64,000 nt of DNA, from NCBI RefSeq assembly GCF_015140235.1, contig NZ_AP023321.1, positions 1,540,501 through 1,604,500 on the forward strand, read 5' to 3'. Source of the DNA: Solibaculum mannosilyticum (GTDB lineage: Bacteria > Bacillota > Clostridia > Oscillospirales > Acutalibacteraceae). Below the pieces are notes generated by a model. The model worked only from the letters and a program-made list of their open reading frames with translations. It made no database searches and was not told where the DNA came from. Made by a program: the position numbers and the translations under genes. Every line of letters starts with the position of its first letter. Positions within the stretch are counted from its first letter, which is position 1. Positions 39,397 to 46,153 of the stretch are shown one piece after another.

Positions 39397-40488
39397 TTAT
39401 AGGACATCTTTTAACGCTTCCCGCAATGTATCGATCTCATTGTGAACATAGATTTCACTGGTCATTTTGATGTCTTTATGCCCCATTATCTTCTGGATTG
39501 TGTAGATGTCTACGCCGGCACGGCGCAACCTCGTACCGTATGTATGCCTTAATTCATGCGCCGTCAGCATTGGTATTTCCGGATAATCTCGATTGAGAGC
39601 TATCATGAAACGTTTTAAGCGTTGAGACCACGTATTGGGATGTTGAGGCCCTCCATCCCGCCCAGGGAACAAATACCCAGATGATTGGCATCTCCATTTC
39701 AACACGGTAATGGCTCTATCCGATAATGGATTGGTTCTGTAGCTCCCCCATTTGGGCGGGTTGATCAGTATACCTCCTCCCCGTTTGTCGGCGACAGAAC
39801 GATTTACCGACAGATCTCTATTTCTTAAATCTATATCTTCATCGGAGAGACCCAACAACTCCCCCCGGCGTAATCCAGTCTCTAATAATATGATTACTTC
39901 AGGCATTCGAGTCATCGCATATTTTTCTACTATTTCGATCTGCTCGTCAGTATACACTTGCTTTTTCGCTTTAATAACATGCGACGAAAACGATATCTTT
40001 TTTGCCGGATTTTTATAGCACAGATCATTATCGATTGCTGATTCAAAAATGCCATTTAAACACATATGCATTTTGGACAACATGGATTTAGACATGTTCG
40101 CCTTACTGGCAAAAAATTCTTTGATATTGATGGGATGTATAGATGTAATAGGCACATCGCCAAAATAGGATAGCAAATGTTTTTTGACCGTGTGTTCATA
40201 GGTGATACGGTAGGTATTTTCGTCTACCTCTCCCCTCTTATATGTTTCCAACCACCTGATCGCCCACTGTCTAAACGTGACATCTTTTTCGACGAACGTG
40301 TTTCCGGTCAGGTTGGCGATCTGCATATCCTGGATATACTTCTGCCCTTGCCGGCGGGCATCGTCCTTACTGACATGGCTGTAGAATGATTTCCGGATGG
40401 GGCTGCCGTCCATTTTCTTGCCTACCGTCATTTTGACCTCGTAGAGGCCGTCAGCACGGTTTGGCTGTTCTTTTTTCTTTCTCGGCAT
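39397..40488 (-). CDS. int: Tyrosine integrase of the prophage
   Basis: A 363-residue phage integrase: N-terminal arm-binding domain (YEVKMTVGKKMDG), SAM-like core-binding domain, and catalytic residues R in TGLRRGELLGL, HELRHTYGTRLRRAG (H, R), GHKD and the tyrosine in TSEIYVHNE. Start 40488 follows AGGGAGG. It lies beside attL, as expected, and reads toward it. Two AAATGTCGTA repeats at 39362 and 39373 may be arm sites. Confidence 0.95.
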   Translation of the reverse strand: MPRKKKEQPNRADGLYEVKMTVGKKMDGSPIRKSFYSHVSKDDARRQGQKYIQDMQIANLTGNTFVEKDVTFRQWAIRWLETYKRGEVDENTYRITYEHTVKKHLLSYFGDVPITSIHPINIKEFFASKANMSKSMLSKMHMCLNGIFESAIDNDLCYKNPAKKISFSSHVIKAKKQVYTDEQIEIVEKYAMTRMPEVIILLETGLRRGELLGLSDEDIDLRNRDLSVNRSVADKRGGGILINPPKWGSYRTNPLSDRAITVLKWRCQSSGYLFPGRDGGPQHPNTWSQRLKRFMIALNRDYPEIPMLTAHELRHTYGTRLRRAGVDIYTIQKIMGHKDIKMTSEIYVHNEIDTLREALKDVL

Positions 40489-40528
40489 ATTGTACCTCCC
40501 TAAAATTGGGCATAACAATGCCCGGGAC

Positions 40529-40558
40529 TTGATTTTCCCGGGCCTGTCGTGGTACAAT
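40529..40558 (+). promoter_or_regulatory. Orphan rightward promoter near int
   Basis: TTGATT (40529-40534), 18-base spacer, TACAAT (40553-40558). No rightward gene follows; a terminator is reached about 85 bases later. The -35 box lies in a GCCCGGGA/TCCCGGGC hairpin (40520-40543). Confidence 0.6.
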
Positions 40559-40564
40559 GTAATT

Positions 40565-40645
40565 GTGAGGTACTTTGTACCAGGATAGGCCCAGGCTTAT
40601 CCACCAGCCGTTCTCCTGCGCCAACAGGAGGGCGGCTTTTCTTTT
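40565..40645 (+). ncRNA. Candidate small RNA between int and yoeB
   Basis: Bounded by the promoter above and the terminator AGCCG-tt-CTCCTG/CAGGAG-gg-CGGCT with TTTTCTTTT (40606-40645). The body contains two further short hairpins (GGTAC-TTT-GTACC, and GGATA...TATCC). No reading frame with a ribosome site is visible. Its end touches the yoeB stop codon on the other strand. Inferred only. Confidence 0.45.
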
Positions 40646-40904
40646 ATTCGTAATGTGTCCACATTCTTAACACATGAACGGCTTGTTCTTCTTCCTTTAC
40701 GGCATAAACGAGGCAATGCTGGATATTGATCCGGCGTGAATAGAACCCTGATAGATTTCCAATTAGCTTTTCATATGGCGGAGGATTCTGGAATGGATCG
40801 ACTTTGACAATATCCAATAGCTTTTTGGCTTTGGGAAGCATTCCAGCAGCTTTTAGTTTTTCATAATCCTTCATAGCCTGCTTGGATAAAATCACTTTAT
40901 ACAT
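40644..40904 (-). CDS. yoeB: Toxin of the YoeB/RelE family
   Basis: An 86-residue ribosome-dependent mRNA endonuclease: MYKVILSKQAMKDYEKLKAAG, NPFQNPPPYEKLIGNLSGFYSRRINIQHCLVYAV, and the C-terminal MWTHYE typical of YoeB. Start 40904 overlaps the antitoxin gene by 8 bases. It probably stabilises the prophage or acts against other phages. Confidence 0.92.
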   Translation of the reverse strand: MYKVILSKQAMKDYEKLKAAGMLPKAKKLLDIVKVDPFQNPPPYEKLIGNLSGFYSRRINIQHCLVYAVKEEEQAVHVLRMWTHYE

Positions 40905-41151
40905 CCCAATCCAGATCCTCCATATCGGTCCCCTCATCCAGTGGTTCTTTTGCTGCCTCTAGAATACTTTCTGCCATGCCAGGAATATTGACCAAATATA
41001 GGGTCTCCATGATGGCGTCCCAATCTTCTGAGGAAACCAACACAGCAGCTGCATTTTTGCCTATAATTTGCACTGGCTCATGAGAATCTTGTGTTCGTGC
41101 AACTAAATTATATAAATCTTTGCGGGCATTTGTAATATTAATGCTATCCAT
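40897..41151 (-). CDS. yefM: Antitoxin of the Phd/YefM family
   Basis: An 84-residue protein starting MDSINITNARKDLYNLV with the AAVLVSSEDWDAIMETLYL segment; it neutralises YoeB and binds its own promoter. The C-terminal acidic tail (EGTDMEDLDWDV) would wrap the toxin. GGAGG precedes the ATG. Confidence 0.92.
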   Translation of the reverse strand: MDSINITNARKDLYNLVARTQDSHEPVQIIGKNAAAVLVSSEDWDAIMETLYLVNIPGMAESILEAAKEPLDEGTDMEDLDWDV

Positions 41152-41226: not shown

Positions 41227-41907
41227 TTACGGATTACATTTTTTACAGGGTACATAGCCGTTATTAATAGCAGACTCACGACTGTTTGTTTCGCTATAAT
41301 TCTCCGGCTTTATTTTTTTGACTTCTTTGCAACTCGAAGAATGGAATTTTTTCGTATTGGTATTTAGAACATAGGTTGTATTTTCTTCTGGTTCATCAAC
41401 AACTTCTGTCTCAGGTGCTTTTGCTGGACTTTTACTTTCTACCTTTGCCGGAGCTTTTGATGGTGTCACAGGTTCCTCTTTAACTGGAGCCTCAGACGGT
41501 ACTACTTCTTCCACTTCAGATACTATTTCTTCTGGTTCTGAAGAAGCTACTGCACTGGATTCTGGCATACTAGGTGCTTTCGAAGATACTGCCCTGCTGG
41601 ATACAGGTGTTTTTGAACTTGCTTCTGCCGTCGTCCAGCTGGACGATACTGCCGAAGACTCTGGTGTTGTAGAGGCCGGCTCAACTTTATTGTCTGTCAT
41701 GACTCCAATAAAGATCACCAGTGATACTACGAACACTGCCGCTCCAGCTCCCAATATCTTCTTGTCCAAATTTTTTTGATTCTTTCGGCACCAAAGCCAA
41801 TAAACCAAGATTCCGATAGGTGCTACAACCCATCCAATGATCAGTAGAATACATGCTCCTATAATGCCCAGAAGCACTTTCCACCACATTTTGTTCTGCC
41901 CTCTCAT
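41227..41907 (-). CDS. Prophage membrane protein with Ada-like zinc tail
   Basis: A 226-residue protein. Two membrane helices (residues about 9-38 and 50-68), a long Ser/Glu/Pro/Thr-rich linker (about 70-170), and a C-terminal domain YVLNTNTKKFHSSSCKEVKKIKPEN ... GYVPCKKCNP. The H-x3-C ... CxxC pattern is the Ada/ComE-associated zinc domain. Its place in the lysogeny block suggests a lysogenic-conversion role such as exclusion of other phages; this is inference. GGAGG precedes the start. Confidence 0.75.
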   Translation of the reverse strand: MRGQNKMWWKVLLGIIGACILLIIGWVVAPIGILVYWLWCRKNQKNLDKKILGAGAAVFVVSLVIFIGVMTDNKVEPASTTPESSAVSSSWTTAEASSKTPVSSRAVSSKAPSMPESSAVASSEPEEIVSEVEEVVPSEAPVKEEPVTPSKAPAKVESKSPAKAPETEVVDEPEENTTYVLNTNTKKFHSSSCKEVKKIKPENYSETNSRESAINNGYVPCKKCNP

Positions 41908-41924: not shown

Positions 41925-41953
41925 TTGACTTCCTTTGTCAAGAAAGTATAATA
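41925..41953 (+). promoter_or_regulatory. Strong orphan rightward promoter
   Basis: TTGACT (41925-41930), 17-base spacer, TATAAT (41948-41953), near consensus, reading away from the membrane protein gene into a region without a rightward gene. Confidence 0.75.
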
Positions 41954-41959
41954 ATTTTG

Positions 41960-42038
41960 GAGGAAACAAAAGCATAATACGCTATTTACTCTCCGCTTCC
42001 CCGCTTAGAGGTACCAGCTCTAGGCGGGGATTTTTTTA
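41960..42038 (+). ncRNA. Candidate small RNA next to the MNT-HEPN gene
   Basis: The promoter above and a strong terminator (CCCCGCTTAGAG/CTCTAGGCGGGG then ATTTTTTT, 42000-42038) delimit about 80 bases. A GGAGG near the 5' end has no ATG, GTG or TTG at proper distance, so it is probably untranslated or an anti-Shine-Dalgarno target. The terminator reads only rightward, while both flanking genes run leftward, so it must serve this transcript. Confidence 0.55.
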
Positions 42039-42755
42039 TCGCTTCAAACTCTCGATCAAACTACAAAAAGCGGGGTAATAAGTACCTTTGATCTTTTCAA
42101 ATACCTCGTTTGCAGTACCTTCATCGTAGATATGCGAAGTGGAATTTCGGGCGTTGAGCAAATCAATCCATACGGATTCATCGTCGATCAATCCATCGGC
42201 ATAAGCCTTTTTCATAACAGACTTTGGGCTATTAATATCGGTGTACCCCTGGTTAAGAAGATACTCTCGTGCAGTTTTCCATGACAGTTCTGTGCAGAAC
42301 TCAAAACGCTGGATTACGCCATCCCGAATAGAAGTAATTTTTAAGCGGCCATAATCATCTAAAGCTTCCTTTAGCCTCTCAACCGCTTCAACCAATTTTT
42401 GGAACTTTTCTCCTAACTTATCCATAATAATAATTCCATCCCGTTTGATATTTTGTTTTAAGCTTTCACTGGTCTGATCGGTGATAAAAACTGCGTCGAA
42501 GTCCAATAGGGTGGGAAGATCTTCAAGCGCCGACTGAAAAAGAGGTTGCCTATCAGAAGGCATCCCATAAATAGCGAGATCAATATCACTGCGTTCTCGG
42601 TGATCCCCTCGGGCCCGGGAACCAAATAGAACGATTGTATCAGCTTGATATTTTTCTCCCAATTCTGCAATTTGACGATATAGAGCTTTCACTCGGAACA
42701 CCTTCTTTTCCTGTTTAGAGCCAATACCGCTAAACAGGGATTTTTTATTGTTCAT
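42036..42755 (-). CDS. Single-chain MNT nucleotidyltransferase - HEPN protein
   Basis: A 239-residue protein. The N-terminal half (about 25-110) is a minimal nucleotidyltransferase: VLFGSRARGDHRERSDIDLAIYG gives the GSxxxG and DxD active site, with DFDAVFI as third acidic strand. The C-terminal half (about 115-239) is a HI0074-type four-helix HEPN domain with LLNARNSTSHIYDE (R-x4-H). Normally these are two genes, MntA antitoxin and HepT toxin; here they are one chain. It overlaps the repressor stop by 11 bases. A GTG at 42692, 8 bases after AGAAGG, is an alternative start that keeps both domains. Confidence 0.85.
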   Translation of the reverse strand: MNNKKSLFSGIGSKQEKKVFRVKALYRQIAELGEKYQADTIVLFGSRARGDHRERSDIDLAIYGMPSDRQPLFQSALEDLPTLLDFDAVFITDQTSESLKQNIKRDGIIIMDKLGEKFQKLVEAVERLKEALDDYGRLKITSIRDGVIQRFEFCTELSWKTAREYLLNQGYTDINSPKSVMKKAYADGLIDDESVWIDLLNARNSTSHIYDEGTANEVFEKIKGTYYPAFCSLIESLKR

Positions 42756-43386
42756 CCTCTTGATCTTTCAAGTAATCCTCAATAGCCAGACCTACTTCGG
42801 TATTGGTAGGTTGAGCAATCCTTAATGCTCGTTCCTGCCCGACTGTAAAACCTAGTTGTTCCAGCTTCTCATAGACTTCTCGTGTGACCAGATCGTAACC
42901 TACTATCTTACCGTCAGAATCATACACCGCCACACGTACTATATCCTCATTACCGCTTTCATCCTGTAGTGATGTTACTTCACACTCTCTTTCCCCTTTT
43001 TTGCCGACCTCTTGGATTTGTTTCCTTCGGTTGGCTTCATTGTTGAGGATATAATCAGTGTATTTATCTACATCGTCCTTACCGGTCTCGTTTAGGGACT
43101 GGTATTTTTTTATGTGCTTTCGATCTCGGAATGTGAGAACATCTCCATCTTTTTCGACAAGTTTAGGGACAAAGCAGCTTTGCACAAGCTCTGCAAATGA
43201 TATGTCGTACATTTGACATAGTCTCGCCAAGGTTTCTATGTCAATTTTATTTTTTCCATTTTCCCAAGCACTTACAGTTTGAGGGGTTACCCCGAGAATA
43301 TCACATATATATTTTTGAGTATACGAATGGCTTTCTCTACCCTCTTTTAGTTTCTGGCCAATTTTTTCATAATCTATAGAAACCAT
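42745..43386 (-). CDS. Prophage CI-like repressor (XRE)
   Basis: A 213-residue protein: helix-turn-helix in residues 8-65 (YTQKYICDILGVTPQTVSAWENGKNKIDIETLARLC). The C-terminal half (ESGNEDIVRVAVYDSDGKIVGYDLV) has no S24 peptidase Ser-Lys pair that I can see, so it is not a LexA-type self-cleaving repressor. Induction may then rely on the antirepressor at 44295. It is transcribed leftward with the MNT-HEPN gene. Confidence 0.88.
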   Translation of the reverse strand: MVSIDYEKIGQKLKEGRESHSYTQKYICDILGVTPQTVSAWENGKNKIDIETLARLCQMYDISFAELVQSCFVPKLVEKDGDVLTFRDRKHIKKYQSLNETGKDDVDKYTDYILNNEANRRKQIQEVGKKGERECEVTSLQDESGNEDIVRVAVYDSDGKIVGYDLVTREVYEKLEQLGFTVGQERALRIAQPTNTEVGLAIEDYLKDQEDEQ

Positions 43387-43407: not shown

Positions 43408-43436
43408 ATTATAATTGATTTTTTGGAAATTGTCAA
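43408..43436 (-). promoter_or_regulatory. Repressor promoter (leftward)
   Basis: Minus strand TTGACA (43431-43436), 17-base spacer, TATAAT (43408-43413), a perfect consensus promoter; the -35 box overlaps operator O1. Confidence 0.85.
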
Positions 43437-45354: not shown

Positions 45355-45543
45355 ATGTGGACGAATAACCTGATCACAGCCGTATTAGGGGTTGGCCTGC
45401 TGTTGGTATTGGCAGTTGTATTGGCATTGGCGGCCGAGATCATCCGGCAGGTCGTACTTGACAAGCAGGACAAGCCGATACAGCGCAGCGTTGATGAGCT
45501 AGCCAAGAGGAGGGGTAACAATGACACAACAAGAGTTGGATAA
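45355..45543 (+). CDS. Small prophage membrane protein (62 aa)
   Basis: AAGGAGG precedes ATG. One membrane helix (NLITAVLGVGLLLVLAVVLALAAEII) then a charged cytosolic tail (DKQDKPIQRSVDELAKRR). Overlaps the next gene by 23 bases. Function unknown. Confidence 0.6.
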   Translation: MWTNNLITAVLGVGLLLVLAVVLALAAEIIRQVVLDKQDKPIQRSVDELAKRRGNNDTTRVG

Positions 45544-46153
45544 TCTATCGCGGCTTCCTACCGTCACCTATGAGCAATTTCTGAAATTTAAACCATGTTG
45601 GCTTAACGATAGAAAAAGAGCCGCTCAATTAAAAGAGATTGGAAGCCGTAAAAGGGAATGGAATGCGCTGGATGTGCTCCGGTTAGAGGAAGTTACTATA
45701 GCAGACCGGATGTGGGCGGTGCTAAGGGAAGAATTTTTGCCCGCACATCTTTTGCACGAGTATGCATGCCGGTGTGCAGATTATGCCCTCAGCAAGATCG
45801 ATAACCCCGATCCCAGGAGTGTTAGAGCAATTGAGGCCAAGCGGAAATGGTTACGCGGGGAAATATCAAACAAAGAGTTGATCACAGCACGGAACGAAGC
45901 ACGGGCTGCATCATGGAGCATAGGATGGGGCGCAGCACGGGCTGCAGCATGGGGCGCAGCACGGGACGCAGCATGGGGCGCAGCACGGGACGCAGCATGG
46001 GGCGCAGCACGGGATGCAGCACGGAAAGACATATTAGATACCCTCATCAGCCTCATAAAAGAAGCCGCCCGCGATGCTGGCACATCGACGAGCGGCAAGC
46101 AGAAATTATCCGCTGTTATTGTAACAAAAAAGGAGCGGGAAATCAATGGGTAA
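45521..46153 (+). CDS. Repeat-containing prophage protein (Ala/Trp/Arg repeats)
   Basis: A 210-residue protein, start after AGAGGAGGGG. Residues 1-125 are ordinary (LPTVTYEQFLKFKPCWLNDR ... RLEEVTIADRMWAVLREEFLP). Residues about 126-168 consist of the 8-residue unit WGAARDAA, four near-identical copies, encoded by 24-bp DNA repeats (45925-46020). Similar Ala-Trp-Ala repeat helices occur in phage proteins annotated as putative immunity proteins. It precedes the recombination genes; function unknown. Confidence 0.65.
   Translation: MTQQELDNLSRLPTVTYEQFLKFKPCWLNDRKRAAQLKEIGSRKREWNALDVLRLEEVTIADRMWAVLREEFLPAHLLHEYACRCADYALSKIDNPDPRSVRAIEAKRKWLRGEISNKELITARNEARAASWSIGWGAARAAAWGAARDAAWGAARDAAWGAARDAARKDILDTLISLIKEAARDAGTSTSGKQKLSAVIVTKKEREING
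45925..46020 (+). repeat. Four tandem 24-bp repeats within a gene
   Basis: Units 45925-45948, 45949-45972, 45973-45996, 45997-46020, each beginning ATGGGGCGCAGCACGGG and differing at one or two bases. The multiple of 3 keeps the frame, so copy number can vary without breaking the protein. Confidence 0.9.

Follow-up and report, generated by a model that had tools for sequence, protein, structure and literature searches.

A prophage gene joining MNT and HEPN domains keeps conserved start signals for a predicted free HEPN toxin

The window, the whole stretch of 64,000 nucleotides analysed here (Solibaculum mannosilyticum, contig NZ_AP023321.1, positions 1,540,501 to 1,604,500), contains a phage-like region with an MNT-HEPN gene between a repressor and an integrase (Table 1). 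The order on the minus strand is repressor, MNT-HEPN, membrane protein, YefM/YoeB and integrase; antirepressor, terminase, portal, protease, capsid and tail genes lie to the right of MNT-HEPN. Perfect-consensus promoter patterns face both directions from the repressor region. A pattern search found no minus-strand terminator between the repressor and MNT-HEPN, and the promoter together with this terminator-free gap makes co-transcription of the two genes likely on sequence patterns, as a preliminary description of the locus had proposed. The lysogeny module contains a second toxin-antitoxin pair, YefM/YoeB (40644-41151, minus strand), placed between the genes of the membrane protein and the integrase. 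The membrane protein (41227-41907) has a Ser/Pro/Glu-rich stalk, and its paralog at the prophage locus L147 has a near-identical N-terminal part and a different tail. The ORF at 45521-46153 (plus strand) carries a repeated WGAARDAA motif, in alanine-rich repeats of about 8 residues.

Table 1. Features of the MNT-HEPN locus (positions in the window)
Feature	Position	Strand	Basis or remark
Tyrosine integrase	39397..40557	-	PF00589, phrog_1
YoeB toxin	40644..40937	-	TIGR02116, 1.4e-25
YefM/Phd antitoxin	40897..41151	-	Profile search
Membrane protein with C-terminal Ada-type Zn-binding segment	41227..41907	-	Paralog at empty site L147
Hairpin repeat copy 2, directly 3' of MNT-HEPN	41998..42030		Pattern search
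MNT-HEPN long form	42036..42692	-	218 aa from GTG 42692
HEPN half; also predicted free HEPN toxin, 129 aa	42036..42425	-	PF08780/TIGR01987; conservation of start and SD
RX4HXY, R203-Y210 (RNSTSHIY)	42126..42149	-	R203, H208 and Y210 invariant in 25 rows
Q149-E152, counterpart of Mg-binding Q44/E47 in L. pneumophila HEPN	42300..42311	-	Alignment; invariant in 25 rows
Codon 111 ATG: ancestral start codon of HEPN, predicted to act as an internal start	42423..42425	-	Met in 33/35 rows; site where split pairs begin HEPN
MNT (adenylyltransferase, MntA-like) half, residues 22-110	42426..42692	-	PF18765/PF01909
Internal Shine-Dalgarno-like sequence CGGGATGGA	42435..42443	-	Clade-wide synonymous excess, z -5.6 to -6.2
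GSX10DXD catalytic motif, residues 45-59	42579..42623	-	G45, S46, D57 and D59 invariant in 25-row alignment
Hairpin repeat copy 1, between repressor and MNT-HEPN	42708..42740		2 mismatches
HTH repressor, first operon gene	42745..43386	-	PF01381
Consensus promoter TTGACA-17-TATAAT of the repressor operon	43408..43436	-	12/12 matches; pattern only

The MNT-HEPN gene is a single open frame of 239 codons (42036-42755, minus strand). In profile searches, residues 28-113 matched Polbeta and NTP_transf_2 (8e-15 and 8e-10), which by sequence identifies a polymerase-beta-type minimal nucleotidyltransferase; residues 117-238 matched NTase_sub_bind (PF08780, 2e-36) and the HI0074 family (TIGR01987, 5e-31). 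The curated cut-offs of the latter family were passed (TIGR01987, 107.2 bits against 55.8; PF08780, 125.1 against 31.8), and the NCBIfam equivalog cut-offs of 60 were missed for both MntA (NF047752, 47.9 bits) and HepT (NF047751, 17.5 bits). The catalytic residue sets of both halves (GSX10DXD; Q149, E152, R203, H208 and Y210) do not vary among 25 fused proteins. Residue Y210 is the predicted AMPylation site; the role of this tyrosine, like the RNase activity of HEPN and the AMPylation by MNT, is carried over from characterized relatives (PMC7641770, PMC11586414).

The preliminary description had reported a fusion of MNT and HEPN in one chain, which agrees with these results; its start codon needs revision. 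No ribosome-binding site precedes the first codon, ATG 42755 (aSD -0.2), and codons 1-21 of this longer frame are a copy of the hairpin repeat, so this ATG was rejected as the true start. The GTG at 42692 is preceded by the SD AAGAAGG (42701-42707, aSD -7.8) and lies 23 residues ahead of GSRAR, a motif ahead of which most relatives begin by 23-27 residues. Translation is thus likely to start at GTG 42692 and to give a product of about 218 aa, which also removes the overlap with the repressor gene.

The AlphaFold2 model, built with 25 relatives, has two folded domains (pLDDT 92.9) and almost no linker, since the final MNT strand (108-112) leads straight into the first HEPN helix (113-138). The HEPN helical fold is present: the predicted HEPN half superposed on the HEPN toxin 8xdj with a target TM of 0.92 (1.2 A), and on 1jog with a target TM of 0.80. 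The MNT half matched the MNT antitoxin 8xeo with a target TM of 0.77. No solved two-domain relative was found among the top structural matches.

With up to 3 mismatches allowed, the 33-bp hairpin repeat has exactly four occurrences in the genome of 2.54 Mb; the reversed control pattern gave 0 matches. Two copies flank MNT-HEPN, and the other two lie directly after the stop of paralogous repressors at the prophage loci L147 and L148, which have one hairpin each and no MNT-HEPN. L147 runs from the repressor through the hairpin into the paralog of the membrane protein, and it thus represents a natural empty site; by this comparison, the MNT-HEPN gene was inserted between two hairpins as a segment of about 0.7 kb. 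Other small cargo was found at L147 (DUF2442) and at L148 (DUF2442/DUF4160), and these genes near the hairpin suggest that the slot beside the repressor swaps small toxin-antitoxin-like cargo. An exact 31-nt scan of the viral contigs for the hairpin gave no match.

The region 41925-42037 on the plus strand has a TTGACT-16-TATAAT promoter pattern (11/12), followed after 45 bp by a strong hairpin and a T-run (fold z -5.0). From this unit, an RNA of some 80 nt could be transcribed that would extend into the 3' end of MNT-HEPN. The unit is present again at L147, and at L148 it lacks the -35 element. A search of the unit against Rfam returned nothing above the cut-off. A small RNA gene is not claimed here, because the hairpin at L147 and L148 simply follows the repressor stop.

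Both genome and viral contigs contain fused relatives, at 51-63% identity. PF08780 was detected in 40 of the 292 genomes of the class, and only about 5 of 57 matches lie in ORFs long enough for a fusion, which bears out the earlier remark that MntA and HepT are usually separate. A quick tree of 89 rows requires at least four changes between fused and split forms. It places the window gene in one fused clade of 33 rows, with the Selenomonas-type and alphaproteobacterial fusions apart; a fusion conserved throughout such a clade is no sequencing error.

Of the fused-clade loci, 29 have 1.4 kb or more of downstream sequence; 14 of these have a site-specific recombinase (tyrosine or serine type) within 2.5 kb downstream on the same strand, versus 4 of 64 for split relatives. 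In the genome collection alone, the counts are 7/18 and 2/41 (Fisher p 0.002). The later-found L128 also has a serine recombinase downstream. The phage position is not unique to fused forms, as the split pairs L055, L064, L090 and L091 share it, and some clade members (L013, L019, L024 and L026) lie in ordinary chromosomal contexts. The loci L004 and L017 share a block of 1,679 bp with 98% identity that includes the fused gene; this block ends about 60 bp past the stop of the gene, and different integrases lie beyond, which indicates that the gene is passed between phages as a module. In both loci, the fused gene is immediately preceded by the gene of a 163-aa protein (L004:5489-5980, L017:468-959; PHROG 33519, function unassigned). 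A ToxN-like assignment of this protein, made by eye, was dropped, since Pfam gave no match and PHROG 33519 was the only one.

The junction of the two domains was compared with that of split pairs. There, the ATG of HEPN lies in most cases within the terminal Tyr-Glu codons of MNT (TAT GAG), in another frame, and an SD-like K-[E/D]-G stretch precedes it. The junction of the fused clade reads DGxxL-ATG-[D/N/S]K, and the frames merge exactly at the HEPN ATG of split pairs, which is what one base lost before that ATG would give. Judging from these junctions, the fused family arose by frame-merging of an overlapping MNT/HEPN pair.

Codon 111 is ATG in 32 of the first 33 clade rows and TTG in the other; further members also have ATG, except L129 (CTG). 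Over 35 distinct rows, column 111 thus has Met 33 times and Leu twice, whereas the Met column 65 drifts freely. The residue at this HEPN-start position is Tyr in split MNTs and in most cases Phe in other fusions. The start-like TTG and CTG are weak evidence, because both are single-step changes from ATG.

The SD-like stretch before codon 111 has a mean aSD of -8.17 kcal/mol versus -5.84 in synonymous recodings, none of which (0/300) was as strong; the clade rows are related, so that the shuffle counts in these tests are no exact probabilities. Windows 110-114 are the five strongest among 200 positions (z -5.0 to -6.3), with an all-position mean near 0. Residue 105 is encoded by AAG in 16/20 rows, compared with a baseline of 36% elsewhere (p 9e-5). 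The synonymous excess was weaker in further clade members (4/200) and not significant in clade B alone (45/300). The internal SD of the window gene itself is moderate (-6.5). The mean is -8.1 in the fused clade versus -5.8 in split pairs, as expected once stop-start coupling is lost. By these codon comparisons, the SD-like stretch is kept beyond protein-coding need.

Independent fusions also have AGGAGG-type sites with ATG or GTG at the HEPN start, including L040 (GCAGGAGGGACATCACTTATG), L045 (AAGGGAGGAGCATCCATTATG) and L034 (AAGGAGATCATATG); L035 has the HEPN-start sequence of L034 but with GTG. No start was found at the MNT/HEPN boundary of the independent fusion L036, and the sequences of L036 and L129 indicate that the internal start is not universal. 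The retained start codon and the strongest SD signal in the gene suggest that it probably makes both the fused chain and a free HEPN of 129 aa from ATG 42425. The single chain reported earlier is thus real as an ORF and is probably half of the output. A purely single-chain mechanism acting only in cis becomes less likely with this conserved start.

Several known systems are comparable. The type VII HepT/MntA systems of S. oneidensis and A. flos-aquae likewise combine a GSX10DXD adenylyltransferase with an RX4HXY HEPN, with the MNT gene first (PMC7641770, PMC3710099); however, they are two separate proteins without fusion or internal start, whereas here one ORF has a predicted second toxin start. 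The HEPN of S. oneidensis belongs to the DUF86 family, and its MNT has a long C-terminal helix which is absent from the MNT of the window. The closest solved complex is the L. pneumophila HEPN-MNT (8xdj, 8xeh, 8xeo; PMC11586414), whose HEPN is alignable by sequence. It shares with the window gene a short MNT without helix 4, the Q/E metal site and the AMPylated Tyr (predicted here), but it is encoded by two genes and forms a 1:4 complex. In the L. pneumophila HEPN, Q44 and E47 bind Mg2+; R98A and H103A had a negligible effect on RNase activity and did not abolish toxicity, whereas Q44A/E47A did (PMC11586414). The H. influenzae HI0073/HI0074 pair has the same HEPN family (TIGR01987) and a minimal NTase, but in two genes. 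Fusions of PF08780 with MNT have been on record since 2013 as occasional and have the same architecture as the window gene; their HEPN domains were described as typically without the RNase residues (PMC3710099), whereas the clade of the window gene keeps them and the toxin start. In the Cas11 case, a small subunit likewise comes from in-frame internal translation of a larger cas defence gene; the proteins are unrelated, and there the internal product was demonstrated by experiment (PMC11899642), whereas the product here is predicted from sequence. A search of open-access papers for toxin-antitoxin fusions with an internal start gave no match. What appears to be new is a fused clade that looks active, has preserved its toxin start and has spread as phage cargo.

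On balance, the gene is best regarded, with moderate confidence, as a prophage-borne single-gene derivative of type VII HepT/MntA that would be read twice, with fused and free HEPN co-assembling and MNT holding the RNase off. The analysis establishes which domains the gene has, that their catalytic residues are intact and that internal start signals are conserved, as well as its place in a prophage and its insertion between repeats; the two products, the trigger and the benefit are only what we infer. One mRNA would have two starts, GTG 42692 for the MNT-HEPN chain and ATG 42425, the ancestral toxin start, for free HEPN; the two ribosome-binding sites would set the ratio of antitoxin-toxin chain to free toxin. 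The HEPN domains of both products would assemble via the known HEPN dimer interface, and the fused chain would be an antitoxin with a built-in docking domain. The target of the MNT half would be Tyr210 of HEPN subunits, adenylylated either in cis or in trans, which would keep the RNase off in the lysogen. When fresh fused protein or the modification is lost, unmodified HEPN would cut RNA and growth would stop. The benefit would be prophage maintenance, possibly also defence against other phages.

The MNT:HEPN ratio is 1:4 in L. pneumophila and 2:6 in S. oneidensis (PMC11586414), and 2:2 in A. flos-aquae; a mixed assembly of fused and free products would fit the unequal ratios, which a pure fusion could not supply. 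Since the MNT is without the long docking helix, like that of Legionella, the fused HEPN may act as its dock. The locus L031 (5887-6423), in which HEPN is intact and MNT mostly deleted, is a natural antitoxin loss that bears on HEPN toxicity; it argues against strong toxicity, as a strong toxin should not allow that.

The same biochemistry might serve only prophage addiction or selfish cargo, with no anti-phage role, which is a serious though lesser possibility. The YefM/YoeB pair in the same module and the insertion as a separate unit between hairpin repeats are in line with it. The open-access literature yielded no phage-defence link for HepT/MntA, and matches to the known anti-phage defence models of PADLOC were weak, the best being the candidate PDC-S09 (40.5 bits over 40 residues only). 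However, lactococcal prophages hold exclusion genes between repressor and integrase (PMC7693887), the very interval occupied here, and the phages among which the gene moves have unrelated integrases.

Rather unlikely is a single chain only, the reading of the preliminary description, with its own HEPN AMPylated in cis or across a homodimer, and with codon 111 and the SD-like stretch as fossils from the split ancestor or aids to pausing between the domains. The one open frame with almost no linker would suit such a protein; the SD-like stretch also encodes a conserved K-D-G turn, and L129 and L036 persist without a standard internal start. Yet a fossil SD should be gone at about 55% protein identity, whereas AAG is strongly preferred, the internal SD signal is the strongest in the gene, Met occupies a position that is Tyr or mostly Phe elsewhere, and separate fusions retained start sites at other junction sequences.

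It is improbable that the gene is a domesticated nucleotidyltransferase with HEPN as a mere substrate-binding domain for another protein, RNA or small molecule: MNT-fused HEPN domains typically act in substrate binding without RNase residues (PMC3710099) and Foldseek weakly matched AAD(9)-type enzymes (E 4e-4, rmsd 18 A), but the five HEPN residues Q149, E152, R203, H208 and Y210 are invariant here, unlike in domesticated fusions, the HEPN half matched the structure of an active toxin best (8xdj), and a conserved separate HEPN start is of no obvious use to a pure binding domain.

The two-product reading may thus be put more generally as a gene within a gene, which we consider somewhat probable: selection would keep the ribosome-binding site and start of the toxin inside the fused frame, several independent fusions would have done alike, and one such gene would be handed on by temperate phages as a cassette within the repressor-integrase interval. 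In a joined pair, decay of the antitoxin can no longer release the toxin in the usual way, and how the toxin is freed becomes the real question. If the reading is true, the conserved internal toxin start would answer it simply, as free toxin would be made throughout and must stay modified. It would also predict a measurable ratio of the two products, and a 1:1 fusion could satisfy unequal complexes. Genome annotation would then miss a second protein in such fused genes, and the hidden second start would change how joined toxin-antitoxin genes are thought to work.
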